This document shows, piece by piece, positions 46,462 through 54,841 of a stretch of DNA of 64,000 nucleotides. The position numbers were made by a program, and so were the translations under genes. Source of the stretch: an uncultured Alphaproteobacteria bacterium (GTDB taxonomy: Bacteria > Pseudomonadota > Alphaproteobacteria > HIMB59 > GCA-002718135). The notes under the pieces are model-generated. The model ran no database searches, had not been told where the DNA came from, and saw only the letters and a list, made by a program, of their open reading frames with translations. Within the stretch, counting starts at the first letter, position 1. Every line of letters begins with the position of its first letter. The stretch is taken from positions 1 to 64,000 of the forward strand of contig CACOPD010000005.1 of assembly GCA_902628835.1 (NCBI GenBank). The letters are read 5' to 3'.

Positions 46462-47508
46462 ATGTCTGCTGTAGAAATCACAAATTTAAGCCACACAATA
46501 GGTAATAAAGAAATTTTAAGAAATATAAACTTTACTCTAAGCAAAGATAGTATCTCGTGTATTTTAGGGCCCTCAGGAAGTGGTAAAACTTCACTCCTTA
46601 AATTAATTGCTGGTTTAGAAAGAGTACAAAACGGTAGTATAAAAATAAACAGTAAAGAAGTAAGTAGCAAATCTAAACATTTACCTACAGAAAAAAGAAA
46701 TATTGGTTTTCTATTTCAAGATTATGCACTGTTTCCCCATCTAACAGTTAAACAAAATTTGGAATATCCTGTTAATTATAAAACTTCACCTCATACTATT
46801 GGAGATATAATTAAATTAATAAAACTTCCAAATTCACTTAATAAGTATCCTCATGAATTAAGTGGGGGTGAGCAACAAAGAGTTGCTTTAGCAAGATCAA
46901 TTATTTCAAACCCTGATATTCTTTTATTAGATGAACCTTTTTCAAGTTTAGATTTAAATTTAAGAGAGGATGTAAGAGATGACACCTTACATTTACTTCA
47001 AAAATCAAATGTCTCAGTAATTATTGTTACTCATGATCCATTTGAAGCAATGTTTATTTCTAATCAAATTAATATTATGGATACAACTGGTAGAATAGTC
47101 CAATCAGGTAGTCCGGCAGAATTATATAATAATCCGGCTAATTCTTACGTAGCTGAATTCTTTGGAGAAACAAATAGATTTGAAGGTATAGTAAAAAATG
47201 CGCAAATTATTACACCTGTTGGCAAAATAAGTGCCCCAAAAGAATTAGAAAATAAAAATGTCAAAATTCATATTAGACCAAGAGGTATTAGATTAAACAA
47301 ACAGCCTACTCCTGTGAATGGTATAAAAGGAACTGTTATGGCTTCAAAATTAATGGGTTCATTTAGTTTTATTCATTTATCTGTTTTAGATAAAGATAAT
47401 GAAATTGTTCACATTCATAGTCATATGCCTGCCGATTTTAATCCAAAACAATCATCTGCAGTAGAAATAGAGATTGATGAAAAACAAACATTTATTTTTC
47501 AAAATTAA
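46462..47508 (+). CDS. fbpC: Iron(III) ABC transporter ATPase, FbpC type
   Basis: The 348-residue ATPase has Walker A GPSGSGKTS near 36-44, signature LSGGEQQR near 132-139 and Walker B ILLLDEP, plus a C-terminal TOBE-like domain with HIRPRGIRL. It belongs to the Fe3+/spermidine/putrescine group. Its gene is convergent with fbpB (4-base overlap) rather than in the same operon, an uncommon arrangement. The assigned substrate follows from the FbpA-type binding protein. Confidence 0.85.
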   Translation: MSAVEITNLSHTIGNKEILRNINFTLSKDSISCILGPSGSGKTSLLKLIAGLERVQNGSIKINSKEVSSKSKHLPTEKRNIGFLFQDYALFPHLTVKQNLEYPVNYKTSPHTIGDIIKLIKLPNSLNKYPHELSGGEQQRVALARSIISNPDILLLDEPFSSLDLNLREDVRDDTLHLLQKSNVSVIIVTHDPFEAMFISNQINIMDTTGRIVQSGSPAELYNNPANSYVAEFFGETNRFEGIVKNAQIITPVGKISAPKELENKNVKIHIRPRGIRLNKQPTPVNGIKGTVMASKLMGSFSFIHLSVLDKDNEIVHIHSHMPADFNPKQSSAVEIEIDEKQTFIFQN

Positions 47509-49118
47509 CTACTTCTTTTCTTTTGAGAGACTCTTTGAAGTGTTGAGTTTAAAAAAATAACCGGCCCAAGACCAACAATTATGATTATTAAAGCTGCAAA
47601 AGATGATTCCTGAAGAAGTTCATCTGATGCATATTGATATACATAAGTTGAAAGTGTTTCAAAATTAAAAGGCCTTAATAAAAGAGTTATTGGTAACTCT
47701 TTGAGAATATCGACAAAAACTAGAATACCTCCGATAAGAACATTGGTATAAATAAGTGGTAAAATAATTTTCCTTATGCTTTGATAAAAGCCTCTACCCA
47801 TTGACGTTGATGCATCCATTGCATTTGGATGAACCTTAAGAATACCTGATCTAATAGCCGCATTACCAACTGCTAAAAATCTAGTTACATAAGCAAAAAT
47901 TAAAACTATAAAACCACCTGCTACATAGCTTAAATGAAAATTTATTATACTATTTATCCAGCCAACAAAAATTACTATTCCTACTGCTAATATCGTTCCA
48001 GGTAATGCGTACCCGCATGAAGCTATAAAAATTAAAACTTTGTGAAAATTGTTTGATTTATAGTTTGAAATTAGAATTAATAAAACAGAAGAAAGCATTA
48101 CAAAAAAAGCACCTGCAGATGCTACTGAAATACTAGTCAGGGCAGTTTTAAATATTTCAGTAAAATTAATAATTGAAAATCCACTTAAAACAAAATTTAA
48201 GAGAATTAGAACTGGAACAATAAACCCTAGAAATATTGGTATAAAGCAAATTAAAAAACAGATTAATTTTTTAGAATTAGATAAGTTATCAGAAATCAAC
48301 ATATTTTGGCCACTGCTTAATTCATGGTATCTTTGTCTTCTTCTTGCTAGGTACTCAATTGTAAGCAGGATTACTACGAAGATAAAAAGTACTGATGAAA
48401 TCTGAGATGCTCCTGACAAACTATTCATACCAAGCCAAACATTAAAAACACCGAGTGTTAGCGTCTCAAGAGCAAAATACTCAACTGTTCCAAAATCAGA
48501 GATTGTTTCCATTAAGACTAGTGCAAGTCCTGCAAATATTCCAGGTCGAGCCAATGGTAAAGCCACAGAAAAAAAACTATTGCGTCCATAAACTAAACTT
48601 GTTTGATAAAAAGATATAGGTACAGTTAAAAATGATGCACGTGTCATCATATATACATAAGGATAAAGAACGCATGACATTACTAACATTGCCCCACTCA
48701 TGGACCTTATTTCTGGGAACCAATAATCTGATGAACTATTCCAATTAAATATTTCCCTAAGAGTTTTTTGAAATACGCCTGCATATTCTAAAAAATCTGT
48801 ATACGTGTATGCGATTATGTATGCTGGAACAGCTGCTGGCAATAATAATGCCCATTCAAATATCTTTTTTCCAAAAAAATTATATCTTGTTACAACCCAA
48901 GCAGAGGATATTCCAAATATTAAAGTCAATACCCCAACACCGAACATTAATACTAATGTATTATAAACATACCTTGGCAGAACAGTTGAAAATAAATGAG
49001 GCCAAAGTGTTGTATCTCCTAAAAATGCAGAGAAGAAGACTGCAATAATAGGAGATATTATAGCAAATGCTAAAAGAGTTGCTAAAGTTGAAGAGCTATT
49101 CCAGTTATACAAAATCAC
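47505..49118 (-). CDS. fbpB: Iron(III) ABC transporter permease, FbpB type (fused double permease)
   Basis: The 537-residue protein contains two permease halves in one chain with about 12 hydrophobic segments, the FbpB architecture. Two EAA-type loops are visible (SLVYGRNSFFSVALPLARPGI near 175-195; DASTSMGRGFYQSIRKIILPLI near 433-454). It imports ferric iron from the periplasm and lies 12 bases after fbpA in the same operon. Confidence 0.9.
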   Translation of the reverse strand: MILYNWNSSSTLATLLAFAIISPIIAVFFSAFLGDTTLWPHLFSTVLPRYVYNTLVLMFGVGVLTLIFGISSAWVVTRYNFFGKKIFEWALLLPAAVPAYIIAYTYTDFLEYAGVFQKTLREIFNWNSSSDYWFPEIRSMSGAMLVMSCVLYPYVYMMTRASFLTVPISFYQTSLVYGRNSFFSVALPLARPGIFAGLALVLMETISDFGTVEYFALETLTLGVFNVWLGMNSLSGASQISSVLFIFVVILLTIEYLARRRQRYHELSSGQNMLISDNLSNSKKLICFLICFIPIFLGFIVPVLILLNFVLSGFSIINFTEIFKTALTSISVASAGAFFVMLSSVLLILISNYKSNNFHKVLIFIASCGYALPGTILAVGIVIFVGWINSIINFHLSYVAGGFIVLIFAYVTRFLAVGNAAIRSGILKVHPNAMDASTSMGRGFYQSIRKIILPLIYTNVLIGGILVFVDILKELPITLLLRPFNFETLSTYVYQYASDELLQESSFAALIIIIVGLGPVIFLNSTLQRVSQKKRSS

Positions 49119-49130
49119 TGGTTTTATAAA

Positions 49131-50150
49131 CTACCAGCCAACTCTATCAATAATCTTTTGAGCTTCTGGTGCTAATTCTGCAATTTTTATAATTGGTAAG
49201 TTGTCTTCGCGAAACTCTCCCCAATTTTGTAATTCTTCACTAGGAGAAACTTTAGGGTTAACAGGGTATTCAAAATTTATTTCACCATAAAGTTTTTGTG
49301 CTTTTTCACTTGTTAGAAACTCTAATAATGCAATAGCCTCTTTTTTATTTTTTGAATATTTTGCAACTCCTGCTCCCGAGATATTTACATGAGCTCCCCT
49401 ATCTCCTTCTGCTTGATTTGGAAATATTAATCTGACATTTTCTACCCATTTCCTTTGTTCAGGATCTTCTGAAAATTTTAGTTTGCCATAATAGTAATTA
49501 TTTATGATTGCTATTGAGCATTCGCCTTCATAAATTGCTTTTACTTGAGCCCTATCATTACCTTGAGGTCTTTTGGCAAAATTTGATACTAGATTTCTTG
49601 CCCATTCCTCAGCTTTTTCTTTTCCATATTCTGCGAGAACTGAAGCCATAATACCTCTGTTGTAAACATGACTTCCAGGTCTAGTGCATATTTGGCCTTT
49701 CCACTTTGAATCAGCAAGATCTTCTAGCGTAGTTATATCTCCATCTTTTATTTTTTCATTATCAACTACTATTACCCTAGCTCTTTTTGATAAACCAAAC
49801 CAAGAATTATCGGGACTTCTTAAGTAAGATGGTATGTTGTTAATTAATTTTTTTGATTCTATTGGTAAAAGTAGATCAAGATCATCATAAACATATAGCC
49901 TGCCTATATCGACAGTTAAAATTATATCTGCAGGACTATTCTCACCCTCAGCTTTAAGACGTTGGGCTAAACCTTTTTTAGAGTAAACTACATTAGTTTT
50001 AATGCCAGTCTCTTGAGTAAACAATTCTAAAAATGGGTTAATAAGAAAAGGCTGTCTATGCGAATATATGTTTATTTCCTTAGCCATAATGTACGGTGTA
50101 AAGATGAAAGATATGGTTAAAAATATAAAACTTATAATATTAGTTTTCAT
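49131..50150 (-). CDS. fbpA: Iron(III) periplasmic binding protein, FbpA/IdiA type
   Basis: The 339-residue protein has a signal peptide (MKTNIISFIFLTISFIFTPYIMA) and the ferric-binding fold: EINIYSHRQPFLINPFLELFTQETGI, ADIILTVDIGRLY near 75 and the tandem-Tyr segment NNYYYGKLKF near 217-226 typical of the iron site. The start overlaps the fatty-acid-hydroxylase-like gene by 11 bases. Confidence 0.92.
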   Translation of the reverse strand: MKTNIISFIFLTISFIFTPYIMAKEINIYSHRQPFLINPFLELFTQETGIKTNVVYSKKGLAQRLKAEGENSPADIILTVDIGRLYVYDDLDLLLPIESKKLINNIPSYLRSPDNSWFGLSKRARVIVVDNEKIKDGDITTLEDLADSKWKGQICTRPGSHVYNRGIMASVLAEYGKEKAEEWARNLVSNFAKRPQGNDRAQVKAIYEGECSIAIINNYYYGKLKFSEDPEQRKWVENVRLIFPNQAEGDRGAHVNISGAGVAKYSKNKKEAIALLEFLTSEKAQKLYGEINFEYPVNPKVSPSEELQNWGEFREDNLPIIKIAELAPEAQKIIDRVGW

Positions 50151-51186
50151 TCAAAATTCTCCCTTTGTTGTTATTTGATAAAAATTTATTCTTTAGTTTT
50201 TTAAAATTTTTAAAAATATAATTTTTAATTTCAATAAATGGATTTAAGTATAAATCTTTGAGATTGTGTGTTTCATCTTTTTGATTTTTTGAAATACCGA
50301 GTTCAAGTGTATCAAATTCTACTGAATGATGAAGTGAGCCAAATAACCAATCCCATATCGCAAGTGCTGCTCCAAAATTTTTATCATGATGTTCTCTTGC
50401 AATAGAGTGATGGAGCTGATGCTGTGCTGGTGAAATAAATATAAACTCTACCCATTTCCAGTATCGAATGCCTATATGTGAATGACGAAGATTAGATCCA
50501 AGTACATTGAATAAAAAAACAAAAATATTTACACCAAGAATTGTTAACAGATCAACATTATTACCGAAAAGAAATATAAATGAAGAAATGCTAATAGCTT
50601 GTGTAAGTGAACTTCTTAATGAAAATATAATACCCTCCAAAGGATGTGTTCTAAATACTGTCATTGGAGTTAAAACTGTTGCTGAATGATGAACTTTATG
50701 AAGTGACCACAATATAGGCCATCTATGCATAAATCTATGAATAATATATTTACTAAAGTCATCAATTGTAAATTGAAACGAAGTAAAAGAAATTATTACA
50801 ATGATTGGCAATGTTTCCTTAAACATTCCAACACTGAGCCAATCGATAGAATGAAAATAAAAATATAGAGCAGTAGCAATTGTTAACTGAGTTATTAATA
50901 ATGGAGAAATTATCATCATTATTAATTGATTAATAAAAAAAACTTTATAGTCTGATTTAGCCGACTTAGAAAAAAATATATTTTTATCAAATATTTTTTT
51001 TAGAGCTTTTTTAAATGATAGTCTTCTATTTAAAACAAACCAACCCAACGCAATGAATATTGAAATAACTATATATGCTATGAAAACTCTTTTTTTAGGA
51101 TCAATAAATTGATTGCCTATTTTTAAAAAATATTCGTTTAAAATTTCCATTCCATTAAAGGTGTGGCTTATTAAAAGCCACACCAA
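50140..51186 (-). CDS. Fatty acid hydroxylase / sterol desaturase superfamily membrane protein
   Basis: The 348-residue membrane protein has four or more hydrophobic segments and the di-iron histidine boxes HRFMHR (near 147), HKVHHS (near 159), and HQLHHSIAREHHDKNFG (near 252-268). Such enzymes hydroxylate or desaturate lipids with a non-heme di-iron centre. Presence inside an iron-uptake operon (between a DUF4856 protein and fbpA) is unusual. Substrate unknown; a role in lipid change under iron limitation is only an inference. Confidence 0.85.
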   Translation of the reverse strand: MVWLLISHTFNGMEILNEYFLKIGNQFIDPKKRVFIAYIVISIFIALGWFVLNRRLSFKKALKKIFDKNIFFSKSAKSDYKVFFINQLIMMIISPLLITQLTIATALYFYFHSIDWLSVGMFKETLPIIVIISFTSFQFTIDDFSKYIIHRFMHRWPILWSLHKVHHSATVLTPMTVFRTHPLEGIIFSLRSSLTQAISISSFIFLFGNNVDLLTILGVNIFVFLFNVLGSNLRHSHIGIRYWKWVEFIFISPAQHQLHHSIAREHHDKNFGAALAIWDWLFGSLHHSVEFDTLELGISKNQKDETHNLKDLYLNPFIEIKNYIFKNFKKLKNKFLSNNNKGRILNEN

Positions 51187-51194
51187 ATATAATA

Positions 51195-52574
51195 TTAGTC
51201 ATTTTCTGCTGAGTCAGAACTTCCCATTGAACTTGCAAGTTCTTCCATAGCAGCTAATTGATCATTTGCTCTCGCAACTACTCCAAATTCATCAACCATT
51301 AGTTTTTGAATTTTAATCATGTGAAGTTTAAATTCTCCCCAATCTTGAGCTTGATCTTTAATGAAGTTACCATTTGAATCAACGCCTACAACTTGAGAAG
51401 CATTTAACAGAACTGGTCCAAAACCCATCATTCTATTCATCTTTTCTGCGGTTTCACCAAGATCTTCTGGTCCACATTGAAGTGCTAAAGCAAAGCCCTT
51501 AAGCTCTCCCCAATGTTTTGCATATTTTCTAAATGCATCTGTAGTATCACCATTTGCTTCCATAATTGTTTCAAGAGCCACAATGTCCTTATATGTAGAA
51601 CCAGCATACTTGAACACAGACTCAGCAATAACTTTTTGCCAATTGTCTCTAATAGTATCTCTAGCTGCTAACATATCTGTTCTTTCAGCAAAGTTAAGGT
51701 TTCTTCCACCAGCATCTCTGATTACTTTTCTTCCATCAATAAATGCTTGGTTAACAGTAGCTAAGTAATTAGTCTTACCGCCTTTGTCATAACTTGATGC
51801 ATAGTAAGCATGTGCGTATAACATCTCAGAATATAAATCTACAACACCATCACCATTATAATCAGCGGCAGCTAAATCTTTCATTTTAGCAACATTGTAG
51901 TTTTGTTCTGCTGTTAGAGTTAAAGAGTGAGCTGGTGCACCCCAATAACCAAAGGCTTCATCCCAACTGTGTTCTTTACCAGTATAGTATGCACCTTCTT
52001 TGTATGGTTTACGGTTTTCTTTTTGACCAATTTCCATTTTTTTACCAAGATAATTGTTTACACCTTGGTTATAAAAAACAGCACCCATTGCAAACTTAGA
52101 TATTAATTGAGTGTAATCAAATCCAGTTGCTGGATCAAAATCACCACCAATCTCACTAGCTTTCTGCATCATATGCTCAAGAGCTTCTGGTCCAGATAGT
52201 CCACCCCAGCCTGGAATAGCACCTTTGTACATTTTACCAGATAAGTTTCCGCTACCTATTTCTGAAACCATGGTTTGCATTACTGGAAAACCATCTTTTG
52301 ATTTTGGAGCGATAATCTCTAAACCATCTTCTCCATTATAGTAAGCCATCATTTTATCAAGATCACCAGTTTTAACAAGTTTCTTCAAACTATCGTGTAA
52401 AACTTGTCTAGCCATTTGACCTGTATATTTTACTGAATTTGTTTCATCGCCATCATAACCTTTTAACGTAATTGGATATGGACCATAAATTTCTGGGCCA
52501 TGACCATCTGCAAAAGATTTAGAAAAACTAAATGAGAAAACTAATGCAGTAGCAATCAGTAATATTTTTTTCAT
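51195..52574 (-). CDS. DUF4856 (imelysin-like) periplasmic iron-associated protein
   Basis: The 459-residue protein has a signal peptide (MKKILLIATALVFSFSFSKSFA) and a DUF4856 domain, recognised by YTGQMARQVLHDSLKK near 50-65, GAVFYNQGVNNYLGKKM near 164-180 and EHSWDEAFGYWG at 201-212. The family is related to imelysin (M75-like, EfeO-type) proteins used in iron acquisition. A DxNxDGxxD loop near 238-246 resembles a calcium-binding loop but lacks the usual last ligand. It is first in the operon ahead of fbpA/B and is preceded by two Irr-type boxes and a structured leader, which supports an iron role. Confidence 0.8.
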   Translation of the reverse strand: MKKILLIATALVFSFSFSKSFADGHGPEIYGPYPITLKGYDGDETNSVKYTGQMARQVLHDSLKKLVKTGDLDKMMAYYNGEDGLEIIAPKSKDGFPVMQTMVSEIGSGNLSGKMYKGAIPGWGGLSGPEALEHMMQKASEIGGDFDPATGFDYTQLISKFAMGAVFYNQGVNNYLGKKMEIGQKENRKPYKEGAYYTGKEHSWDEAFGYWGAPAHSLTLTAEQNYNVAKMKDLAAADYNGDGVVDLYSEMLYAHAYYASSYDKGGKTNYLATVNQAFIDGRKVIRDAGGRNLNFAERTDMLAARDTIRDNWQKVIAESVFKYAGSTYKDIVALETIMEANGDTTDAFRKYAKHWGELKGFALALQCGPEDLGETAEKMNRMMGFGPVLLNASQVVGVDSNGNFIKDQAQDWGEFKLHMIKIQKLMVDEFGVVARANDQLAAMEELASSMGSSDSAEND

Positions 52575-52614: not shown

Positions 52615-52683
52615 GTGGAGATAAGTGAAAACCTGTGAGGTTAAGATGCGCCTTTACCCTTTAAAAAGATTGCTTATCTCCAC
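52615..52683 (-). ncRNA. Structured 5' leader candidate of the iron operon
   Basis: An 11-bp perfect inverted repeat (GTGGAGATAAG / CTTATCTCCAC at 52615-52625 and 52673-52683) encloses about 47 bases that contain a second hairpin, AACCT-GTG-AGGTT (52630-52642, + strand letters). Read on the - strand it lies about 40 bases before the DUF4856 start, after the predicted promoter region. It has the look of a folded cis-regulatory RNA, but I match it to no known riboswitch class. On the + strand it is followed further on by a run of ten T, so an RNA from that strand is also conceivable. Confidence 0.5.
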
Positions 52684-52779
52684 GTCCTATTACTAAGGAT
52701 CTAAAATGCTTTTATATTAATTAAAAATCGTTTTTTTTTTATTTAAAAAATGATGTTATTTTAGGAAAAAATAAGCTTT

Positions 52780-52796
52780 TTTAGAGTTATTCTAAT
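52780..52796. promoter_or_regulatory. Irr/ICE-type iron control box 1
   Basis: TTTAGAG-TTA-TTCTAAT forms the inverted repeat TTAGA-N5-TCTAA and fits the rhizobial iron control element TTTAGAA-N3-TTCTAAA with two mismatches. It lies about 206 bases before the DUF4856 start. Binding by an Irr-like regulator is inferred. Confidence 0.6.
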
Positions 52797-52961
52797 TTAA
52801 AGAAAATTTTAGTAGGTGGTTAATAATCGTAATATTAAATGTGAGTTATAATGTTAAAAAAACTAACCACCATGGAACGGAAGTAAACTTCTACATAGAT
52901 AAAAATGAACTTTTTTGTAAAAAAAAATTATTTCTACAGCAAGAAACATTAATTAGGGTAT

Positions 52962-52978
52962 TTTAGAACTATTCTAAT
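52962..52978. promoter_or_regulatory. Irr/ICE-type iron control box 2
   Basis: TTTAGAA-CTA-TTCTAAT matches the iron control element consensus at 16 of 17 positions, counting free spacer positions. It lies 182 bases from box 1 with similar flanks (both followed by a TAAA(A)GAAA tract), just past the 3' end of hupE. The 160 bases between the boxes hold an 8-bp inverted repeat (GGTGGTTA at 52815, TAACCACC at 52864) and no open frame I trust. Confidence 0.62.
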
Positions 52979-52988
52979 TAAAAGAAAT

Positions 52989-53576
52989 TTAAATAATCAA
53001 ATAGAATCCAAAAACAGCACAGCATAGTCCGAGAATTCTTAAAACTGCATTTAAAAAATAATTTTTAATCAACACCAATCCAATACCTACTCCAAATAAG
53101 TGTAGAACTGCTGTACCTGATGAAAAACCTAGAGCAAACAATATTGGATTAGCAGCCCAAGGCATTTCAATACCGTGAGCTAATCCATGAAAGGAACCAA
53201 AAAATATAACTGCTATCATTATTATAATTGTTGGTAATTTTTTTTCTATCGCAACCGATAAGCCTAAAAAAATTACTGAAAAGATTATTCCCCACTCAAT
53301 AATATTAGACAGAGTAATGGCTAGTATTTCTATAAATAAACCTGCCGCTCCGCCTAAAATCATAAATAGAACAAACAAGGAGGGAACTGTCCATATGGCT
53401 CTTCCACCAATTTGTGAACTGACAACTCCAACACATACCATTGCTAAAAAATGATCTAAACCTAAAACAGGATGTGAGAGACCGTCATAGAAACCATTCA
53501 TTCCTGTAAAGGTATGGGCGTAAAGAGGTTTAAAAATTAAAAGTGTGCTTATTAAAAAAATAATTCTGAGAAACAT
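52989..53576 (-). CDS. hupE: HupE/UreJ-family membrane protein
   Basis: The 195-residue protein has a signal-like N-terminus and about six hydrophobic segments with the family motifs HPVLGLDHFLAMVCVGVVSSQIGG near 36-58 and FHGLAHGIEMPWAANPILFALGF near 129-151. HupE/UreJ proteins are thought to take up nickel or cobalt. No hydrogenase or urease gene is in the window, so cobalt for a B12-type use, or another metal, is possible. It follows the gene at 53584 by 7 bases. Confidence 0.85.
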   Translation of the reverse strand: MFLRIIFLISTLLIFKPLYAHTFTGMNGFYDGLSHPVLGLDHFLAMVCVGVVSSQIGGRAIWTVPSLFVLFMILGGAAGLFIEILAITLSNIIEWGIIFSVIFLGLSVAIEKKLPTIIIMIAVIFFGSFHGLAHGIEMPWAANPILFALGFSSGTAVLHLFGVGIGLVLIKNYFLNAVLRILGLCCAVFGFYLII

Positions 53577-54334: not shown

Positions 54335-54770
54335 ACTTTATTGAGATTAATCTAGCTTTTTTTTCTTCTGGAATAATTCTCTCCAAATCAATCGCTAAAA
54401 GTCCATTTTTCAATTCAGCGTCTTTAACTTTAATATCTTCTGAAATTGTGAACGATCTTTCAAATTGTCTTGTTGAGATTCCTTTATGGATTACACCATT
54501 ACCATTTTCATTAACCACTTTTTCTTTAGGTTTATTTCTAACAGTTAGGTTGTTTTCTTTTAATTCAATCTCAATATCTTCTTTACTATATCCAGCAAGA
54601 GCAACTTCAATTTTATAGTTATGCTCATCGACTCTATGAATATTGTAAGGTGGATAATTTGTATTGTATCGTTCCGTAGACTCCAACATTCTATCAAATT
54701 CATCAAAAATTGAGTCAAATCCAACAGAGAATGGTCTTAGAGAATTCCAAACGGATAGGTTTCTAGTCAT
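54333..54770 (-). CDS. Small heat shock protein Hsp20 (IbpA-like)
   Basis: The 145-residue holdase has an alpha-crystallin domain: YNIHRVDEHNYKIEVALAGYSKEDIEIELKENNLTVR (about 37-73) and the C-terminal LKNGLLAIDLERIIPEE with a short IxI-like tail. The N-terminus (SLRPFSVGFDSIFDEFDRML) is IbpA-type. The start at 54770 has AGGAG five bases upstream; a longer in-frame start lies inside the leader hairpin and is not credible. Expression is probably controlled by the ROSE-like element just before it. Confidence 0.92.
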   Translation of the reverse strand: MTRNLSVWNSLRPFSVGFDSIFDEFDRMLESTERYNTNYPPYNIHRVDEHNYKIEVALAGYSKEDIEIELKENNLTVRNKPKEKVVNENGNGVIHKGISTRQFERSFTISEDIKVKDAELKNGLLAIDLERIIPEEKKARLISIK

Positions 54771-54773
54771 AAT

Positions 54774-54841
54774 AACTCCTTTATTAAGCAAGTTTATTTT
54801 GTCCGCACCCACAATGGCATACAGACATTTATTATGTGGGT
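54774..54841 (-). promoter_or_regulatory. ROSE-like RNA thermometer in the hsp20 leader
   Basis: On the transcript, AACUUGCUU (54794-54786) can pair with AAGGAGUU (54781-54774) across an AAUA loop, hiding the Shine-Dalgarno AGGAG and leaving a single unpaired G. This is the UYGCU/SD pairing that defines ROSE elements. A second hairpin upstream pairs ACCCACA with UGUGGGU (54841-54835 and 54813-54807). Location directly before a small heat shock gene is where ROSE elements occur in Alphaproteobacteria. Read by eye, not by folding software. Confidence 0.72.

Follow-up and report, generated by a model that had tools for sequence, protein, structure and literature searches.

The locus considered here raises the question of why an iron-acquisition operon should be preceded by two Irr-type iron control boxes (ICE), and what the DNA between them is for. 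It lies in a window of 64,000 nucleotides (contig CACOPD010000005.1, positions 1 to 64,000) from an uncultured alphaproteobacterium of the HIMB59 lineage, in which the genes hsp20, a 224-aa gene, hupE, DUF4856, hydroxylase, fbpA and fbpB follow one another in this order, all on the minus strand, with 414 bp of intergenic DNA between hupE and DUF4856. The operon begins with the DUF4856 protein gene (51195-52574; PF16148, 6e-10), followed by the genes for a fatty-acid-hydroxylase family membrane protein (50140-51186), a fbpA/futA-type ferric-iron-binding protein (49131-50150; iron transport protein 2pt1, 3.9e-87) and a fbpB-type ABC permease (47505-49118), whose family placement is general and whose iron role is deduced from its context. 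The fbpC-type ABC ATPase gene (46462-47508, plus strand) is convergent and stands outside the operon, and the upstream neighbor is the HupE/UreJ-family gene (52989-53576, minus strand), whose end lies 10 bp before the distal box. In the loci checked the hydroxylase gene is always found after DUF4856, and its product shows a distant similarity to the ornithine-lipid hydroxylase OlsE (47 bits, far below the cut-off). The answer favored here, to which we assign a probability of about 0.6, is that the boxes serve two promoters arranged in series and activated by Irr, the distal of which would drive an orphan 71-nt RNA kept by selection.

Neither box has a strand of its own. The proximal one (TTTAGAGTTATTCTAAT, 52780-52796; ATTAGAATAACTCTAAA in minus-strand sense) departs from TTTAGAANNNTTCTAAA at two positions and the distal one (TTTAGAACTATTCTAAT, 52962-52978; ATTAGAATAGTTCTAAA in minus-strand sense) at one; in the reading sense of the minus strand they are placed at -222 and -404 from the DUF4856 start. 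The first-pass annotation had reported two boxes 182 bp apart that closely fit the ICE motif, and both are indeed present between 52780 and 52978, far above chance: when the 414-bp intergenic region was simulated 20,000 times with a first-order model, at least two sites with two mismatches or fewer arose in only 0.2% of cases. Their conservation was followed in DUF4856 relatives, comprising genomes of the same family, with Pelagibacteraceae bacterium AG-337-I02 among the close ones, and named single-cell and metagenome assemblies, many of them incomplete; all the evidence is computational. The proximal box is kept in nearly all of the approximately 30 related genomes that bear the operon (DUF4856 protein identity 79-100%) and is degenerate in L029 and L054, and the distal box is found in only one group, clade A, where 16 of its 17 columns are invariant. 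In the 14 two-box sequences, identity reaches 97-99% in the boxes, 67-79% in the adjoining spacers and 62% at the fourfold sites of DUF4856, which argues that the boxes are under strong selection.

Downstream of the proximal box, the operon promoter has a predicted -10 element, TATAAA (52711-52716, minus strand), in which TATAA is 100% conserved and the sixth base 92% in the two-box species, and no recognizable -35. The distal promoter has a predicted -10 element at 52892-52897 (minus strand), which reads TATGTA here and TATAAA, TATTAA or TAATTA elsewhere, T-12, A-11 and A-7 (numbered relative to TACTTCC) being 100% conserved; a possible -35 element, TTTACA (52916-52921, minus strand), is mostly conserved in the two-box species and missing in L023, and counts as weak evidence. 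From the box end to the start of the conserved RNA that follows, the distance in clade A is 77 bp (76 in one sequence) for the operon leader and 76-77 bp for the inter-box RNA; it is 78 bp in clade B (79 in one), 76 in clade C, 75 in L059 and 75 in L029. The spacing is thus near constant over six sequence types although the spacers themselves are poorly conserved; the leader of a further gene in clade B, gene X (86-88 bp), is left out of this argument because its distance is measured from an arbitrary motif. As a -10 element also occurs at the expected distance upstream of both clade A RNAs, we conclude that these RNAs are predicted transcript starts, and that the box centers lie about 84 (proximal) and 85 bp (distal) upstream of them. 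On these predictions the boxes belong to two separate promoter units, each with a box, a -10 element and a conserved RNA start.

The RNA of the distal unit is a conserved element of 71 nt (TACTTCCGTTCCATGGTGGTTAG...TTAACCACC; 52815-52885, minus strand), formed by an unpaired 5' end and a hairpin. Its mean identity is 96%, as compared to 62% at fourfold sites and 67-79% in the neighboring spacers; the 5' segment TACTTCCGTTCCA is invariant, one hairpin pair is seen as GC, GU and AU, and the element is clearly selected. It occurs in 19-20 of the 162 genomes of the order, once in each, and only upstream of the DUF4856-hydroxylase-fbpAB operon; a match in G033 is a chance match in an unrelated region. 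The 8-bp inverted repeat noticed earlier between the boxes (52815-52822 and 52864-52871) is found as described and is extended by imperfect pairing. A small protein encoded at this place was rejected: the only ATG lies at the base of the hairpin and is replaced by ACG in L007, and L014 and L023 have indels in the loop.

The boxes and their flanks had been said to look duplicated. This part of the first-pass annotation does not hold, since the shared flanks (40 nt, 80%) consist of AT-rich matches at the edges and the 70 nt downstream of each box are 37.9% identical to each other, which is the chance level (37.4 +/- 1.5% for shuffles), so that a segmental duplication is out. The relatives offer another explanation. 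The 71-nt RNA is separated from the proximal box by an 18-nt gap (52797-52814, minus strand), and at this very place L011 and L014 (genomes G099 and G014) carry gene X, which encodes a winged-helix regulator of 119 aa; by its position, the RNA is predicted to be the leader of gene X in these two loci. The AlphaFold model of the gene X product has a mean confidence of 82, and its nearest solved structures are MarR-type proteins, with modest scores; the modeled fold is that of a MarR-like winged-helix regulator. Clade B likewise has gene X immediately upstream of the proximal box; there the gene is preceded by a box of its own at about -173 and by a hairpin leader of another kind. That leader (L173-L178) forms a strong hairpin with a conserved TTGCAGGTACCAGCGCAA apex and a self-complementary GGUACC loop, and has no Rfam match in L174 or L175. 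Most genomes hold a distant paralogue of gene X elsewhere, and in the window species the gene no longer stands between the boxes. At least two changes of state are required to map the absence of gene X onto the DUF4856 tree; recombination of the region, or loss of gene X and its later regain, may underlie this pattern. Since relatives have gene X and the flanks are unlike, the distance of 182 bp between the boxes is most likely the outcome of gene loss and not of duplication. The distal unit would then be what a lost gene has left behind, its promoter and leader still intact, and offers a testable case of a leader that outlives its gene.

In the proposed model, the distal unit now yields the 71-nt orphan RNA, which would most likely be an iron-responsive small RNA. 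A small RNA between the boxes had been suggested as a possibility, and the suggestion has become plausible, as the 71-nt element has its own -10 and box and occurs in many species that no longer have its former gene next to it. We tentatively regard it as an Irr-controlled small RNA that arose from the leader of an mRNA: the winged-helix gene would have been deleted, probably more than once, with the promoter and the leader retained and now acting alone in the iron response. Such an RNA would resemble RyhB, PrrF and NrrF, the Fur-controlled iron small RNAs, in being a conserved element of small-RNA size with a promoter under a Fur-family iron regulator, but would differ from them by its Irr box instead of a Fur box, by its origin as a gene leader, and by having no clear terminator and no Rfam match. 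The search for trans targets gave no conserved match to start regions, and hence no conserved pairing with a target mRNA of the RyhB kind; only the 12-nt 5' segment was used, in seven genomes. The rather unlikely alternative that survives best holds that the distal unit is a second promoter of the operon, giving a longer mRNA from about 52885 that contains both RNA elements, with the 71-nt element functioning in cis. It agrees with the sequence after the hairpin, where the U-run is poor and no typical U-run terminator is seen, with the position of the proximal box only 18 nt further along the same strand, and with the restriction of the element to the upstream region of this operon, but in L011 and L014 the same RNA leads gene X, with the operon about 500 bp further away, and the proximal unit already possesses its own start and a full leader. 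Action of the orphan RNA in trans is therefore ranked somewhat above an extended operon leader.

The protein that recognizes the boxes had been proposed to be Irr, and an irr gene is indeed present. The genome encodes two Fur-family proteins, one of which is probably Zur, as its gene stands beside znu-type transporter genes; for the other, IrrA is the highest-scoring curated family, its 149.6 bits falling 0.4 short of the cut-off of 150; Fur and PerR models score far lower, and orthologues of this protein in relatives exceed that cut-off. Irr is found in 78 of the 110 genomes of the family, as their incompleteness would lead one to expect, and in nine of the ten most complete; in G032 (90% complete), both boxes are present and no Irr was detected. 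The canonical ICE-like palindrome, the Irr-type gene here and in most relatives and the iron-transport genes downstream are all consistent with Irr as the regulator. It is improbable that the boxes are bound by another protein, for instance the winged-helix product of gene X, as their presence on both sides of that gene in relatives might suggest, or an unrecognized regulator, given that they are unchanged in species without an adjacent gene X and also precede fbpA in genomes without DUF4856, that the motif is the known Irr palindrome, and that G108 has a perfect box between an Irr-like gene and katG. As in the Irr/ICE system of rhizobia and other alphaproteobacteria, the locus thus combines a TTTAGAA-N3-TTCTAAA palindrome with one or two mismatches, an Irr-type gene and iron genes downstream; it differs from that system in that the centers lie at about -85 with a nearly fixed spacing to structured leaders, in the very few sites per genome, and in the host lineage, which belongs to the streamlined marine plankton. 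Genome scans for boxes, which are pattern searches, gave only about seven places in the 1.48-Mb assembly that match the near-palindrome TTAGAATAATTCTAA with at most one mismatch, the two boxes among them, and few of the other sites are convincing, so that the Irr regulon of the window genome looks very small. Iron control of the operon finds support apart from the Irr argument, because a canonical Fur box, TGATAATGATTATCA, precedes the same operon in about 10 other alphaproteobacterial loci; one operon would thus be served by a Fur box in one lineage and by an Irr-type box in another. The Fur-box core TGATAATGATTATCA lies at about -165 of DUF4856 in L073, L075, L078, L104 and others.

As to the direction of control, the position of the boxes at about -85 and their nearly fixed spacing fit an activator, so that Irr-dependent induction would be expected in iron shortage. 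Rudolph et al. reportedly described positive control by Irr through ICE in 2006. In the species studied, Irr is mostly a repressor that acts near the start site under iron depletion (PMC3413700), and slightly less probable even than binding by another protein is that it represses through these boxes, as for bfr/mbfA-type genes, the operon being induced by iron or heme sufficiency: the sites at -84/-85, with their nearly fixed spacing, are far from the core promoter, the operon genes are those of iron uptake, and other lineages have Fur boxes before the same operon. Uptake genes should rise in iron shortage, as does the homologous transporter gene sfuC of Pelagibacter, which is 16-fold up under iron limitation (PMC2864753), and this expectation, together with the site at -85, leads to the activator model. 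Under shortage of iron (or heme), the Irr-type Fur-family protein would bind each palindrome, about 85 bp upstream of the promoter, and promoters with a weak or absent -35 would be switched on by bound Irr, the proximal unit giving the mRNA of the iron-acquisition operon. The nearly constant box-to-start spacing suggests concretely how Irr could act as an activator, a role that has been described less fully than its repression of genes. The locus also links an Irr-type circuit with ferric uptake in uncultured bacteria of the ocean, whose growth is often limited by iron and whose iron regulation is little known. It is very unlikely that the inter-box RNA survives only as a non-functional relic of the gene X leader, even with gene X gone in the window species: its mean identity is 96%, as compared to 62% for fourfold sites and 67-79% for the neighboring spacers, and has been maintained across at least two changes of state on the tree.

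The operon mRNA itself is predicted to start with a conserved double hairpin, a structured 5' leader of 88 nt (52615-52702, minus strand) that the first-pass annotation did not include. It consists of a 3-nt tail, the P1 hairpin (52699-52685; four pairs and a 7-nt loop), 1 nt, and P2, whose arms are 52683-52673 and 52625-52615. The same layout in different letters is present in the sister clade B, L059 and L029, and the leader, recognized by its motif, also occurs in 47 genomes without a DUF4856 match; in clade C, represented by the five of those 47 genomes that were read, it lies directly before fbpA. Both strands of P1 vary while its geometry stays constant; 97.5% of cells are paired and about 1 in 500 shuffles is as good, so that its covariation, over ten short rows, appears good but not overwhelming. 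Covariation of P2 was judged within clade A and by fold, because the MAFFT alignment of clades A and B is structurally wrong over P2. Neither the operon leader nor the inter-box RNA has an Rfam match above the gathering score; the former is a new two-hairpin leader, and the locus adds two structured RNAs that Rfam does not have. A parallel in position to the operon leader is the region before sfuC in Ca. Pelagibacter ubique, a candidate structured region according to Meyer et al. 2009 (PMC2704228) and Smith et al. 2010 (PMC2864753), which likewise places a possible RNA before a strongly iron-regulated FbpA-type gene, but is only a ranked intergenic region with no named motif.

Regarding its function, an anti-Shine-Dalgarno switch through the 5' arm of P1 was discarded, since in clade C the arm pairs better with the clade A site than with the site of clade C itself, and no leader arm was found that alternatively pairs and covaries with the ribosome-binding site across clades, as a riboswitch might. 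A ligand pocket in P2 is unlikely because of the small P2 loop of clade C. With these options weakened, the preferred guess is that the double hairpin protects the 5' end from decay or serves as a protein-binding site. Some mRNAs, such as ompA, carry stabilizing hairpins at their 5' terminus. The leader shares with them stable stem-loops that lie at the predicted 5' end and far upstream of the ribosome site. It differs in conserving both the geometry of P1 and the placement of P1 with respect to P2, which suggests that it is recognized more specifically.

Some further sites were seen outside the operon. The window's own genome has a near-perfect box, ATTAGAATAATTCTAAA (L114, 2627-2643), about 85-100 bp before the gene of a 217-aa protein that has no Pfam or NCBIfam match, and flavodoxin was dropped as a second Irr target, as the only relative that has this gene lacks the site. 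The perfect box of G108 between the Irr-like Fur-family gene and katG is located at L151 1501-1515 and L243 2240-2256; katG was rejected as a lineage-wide target, this box being found only in G108, with none before katG in G079 or G032. G002 has a perfect box between hsp20 and the 224-aa/hupE pair (L146, 1501-1515), which is absent in the window and suggests a place for the two genes in the iron response. Before hsp20, a ROSE_3-like RNA thermometer is matched at 54765-54826 (minus strand) with 29.9 bits, below the gathering score of 43 (E 0.0008), and similar sub-threshold matches are present in L195 and L006.
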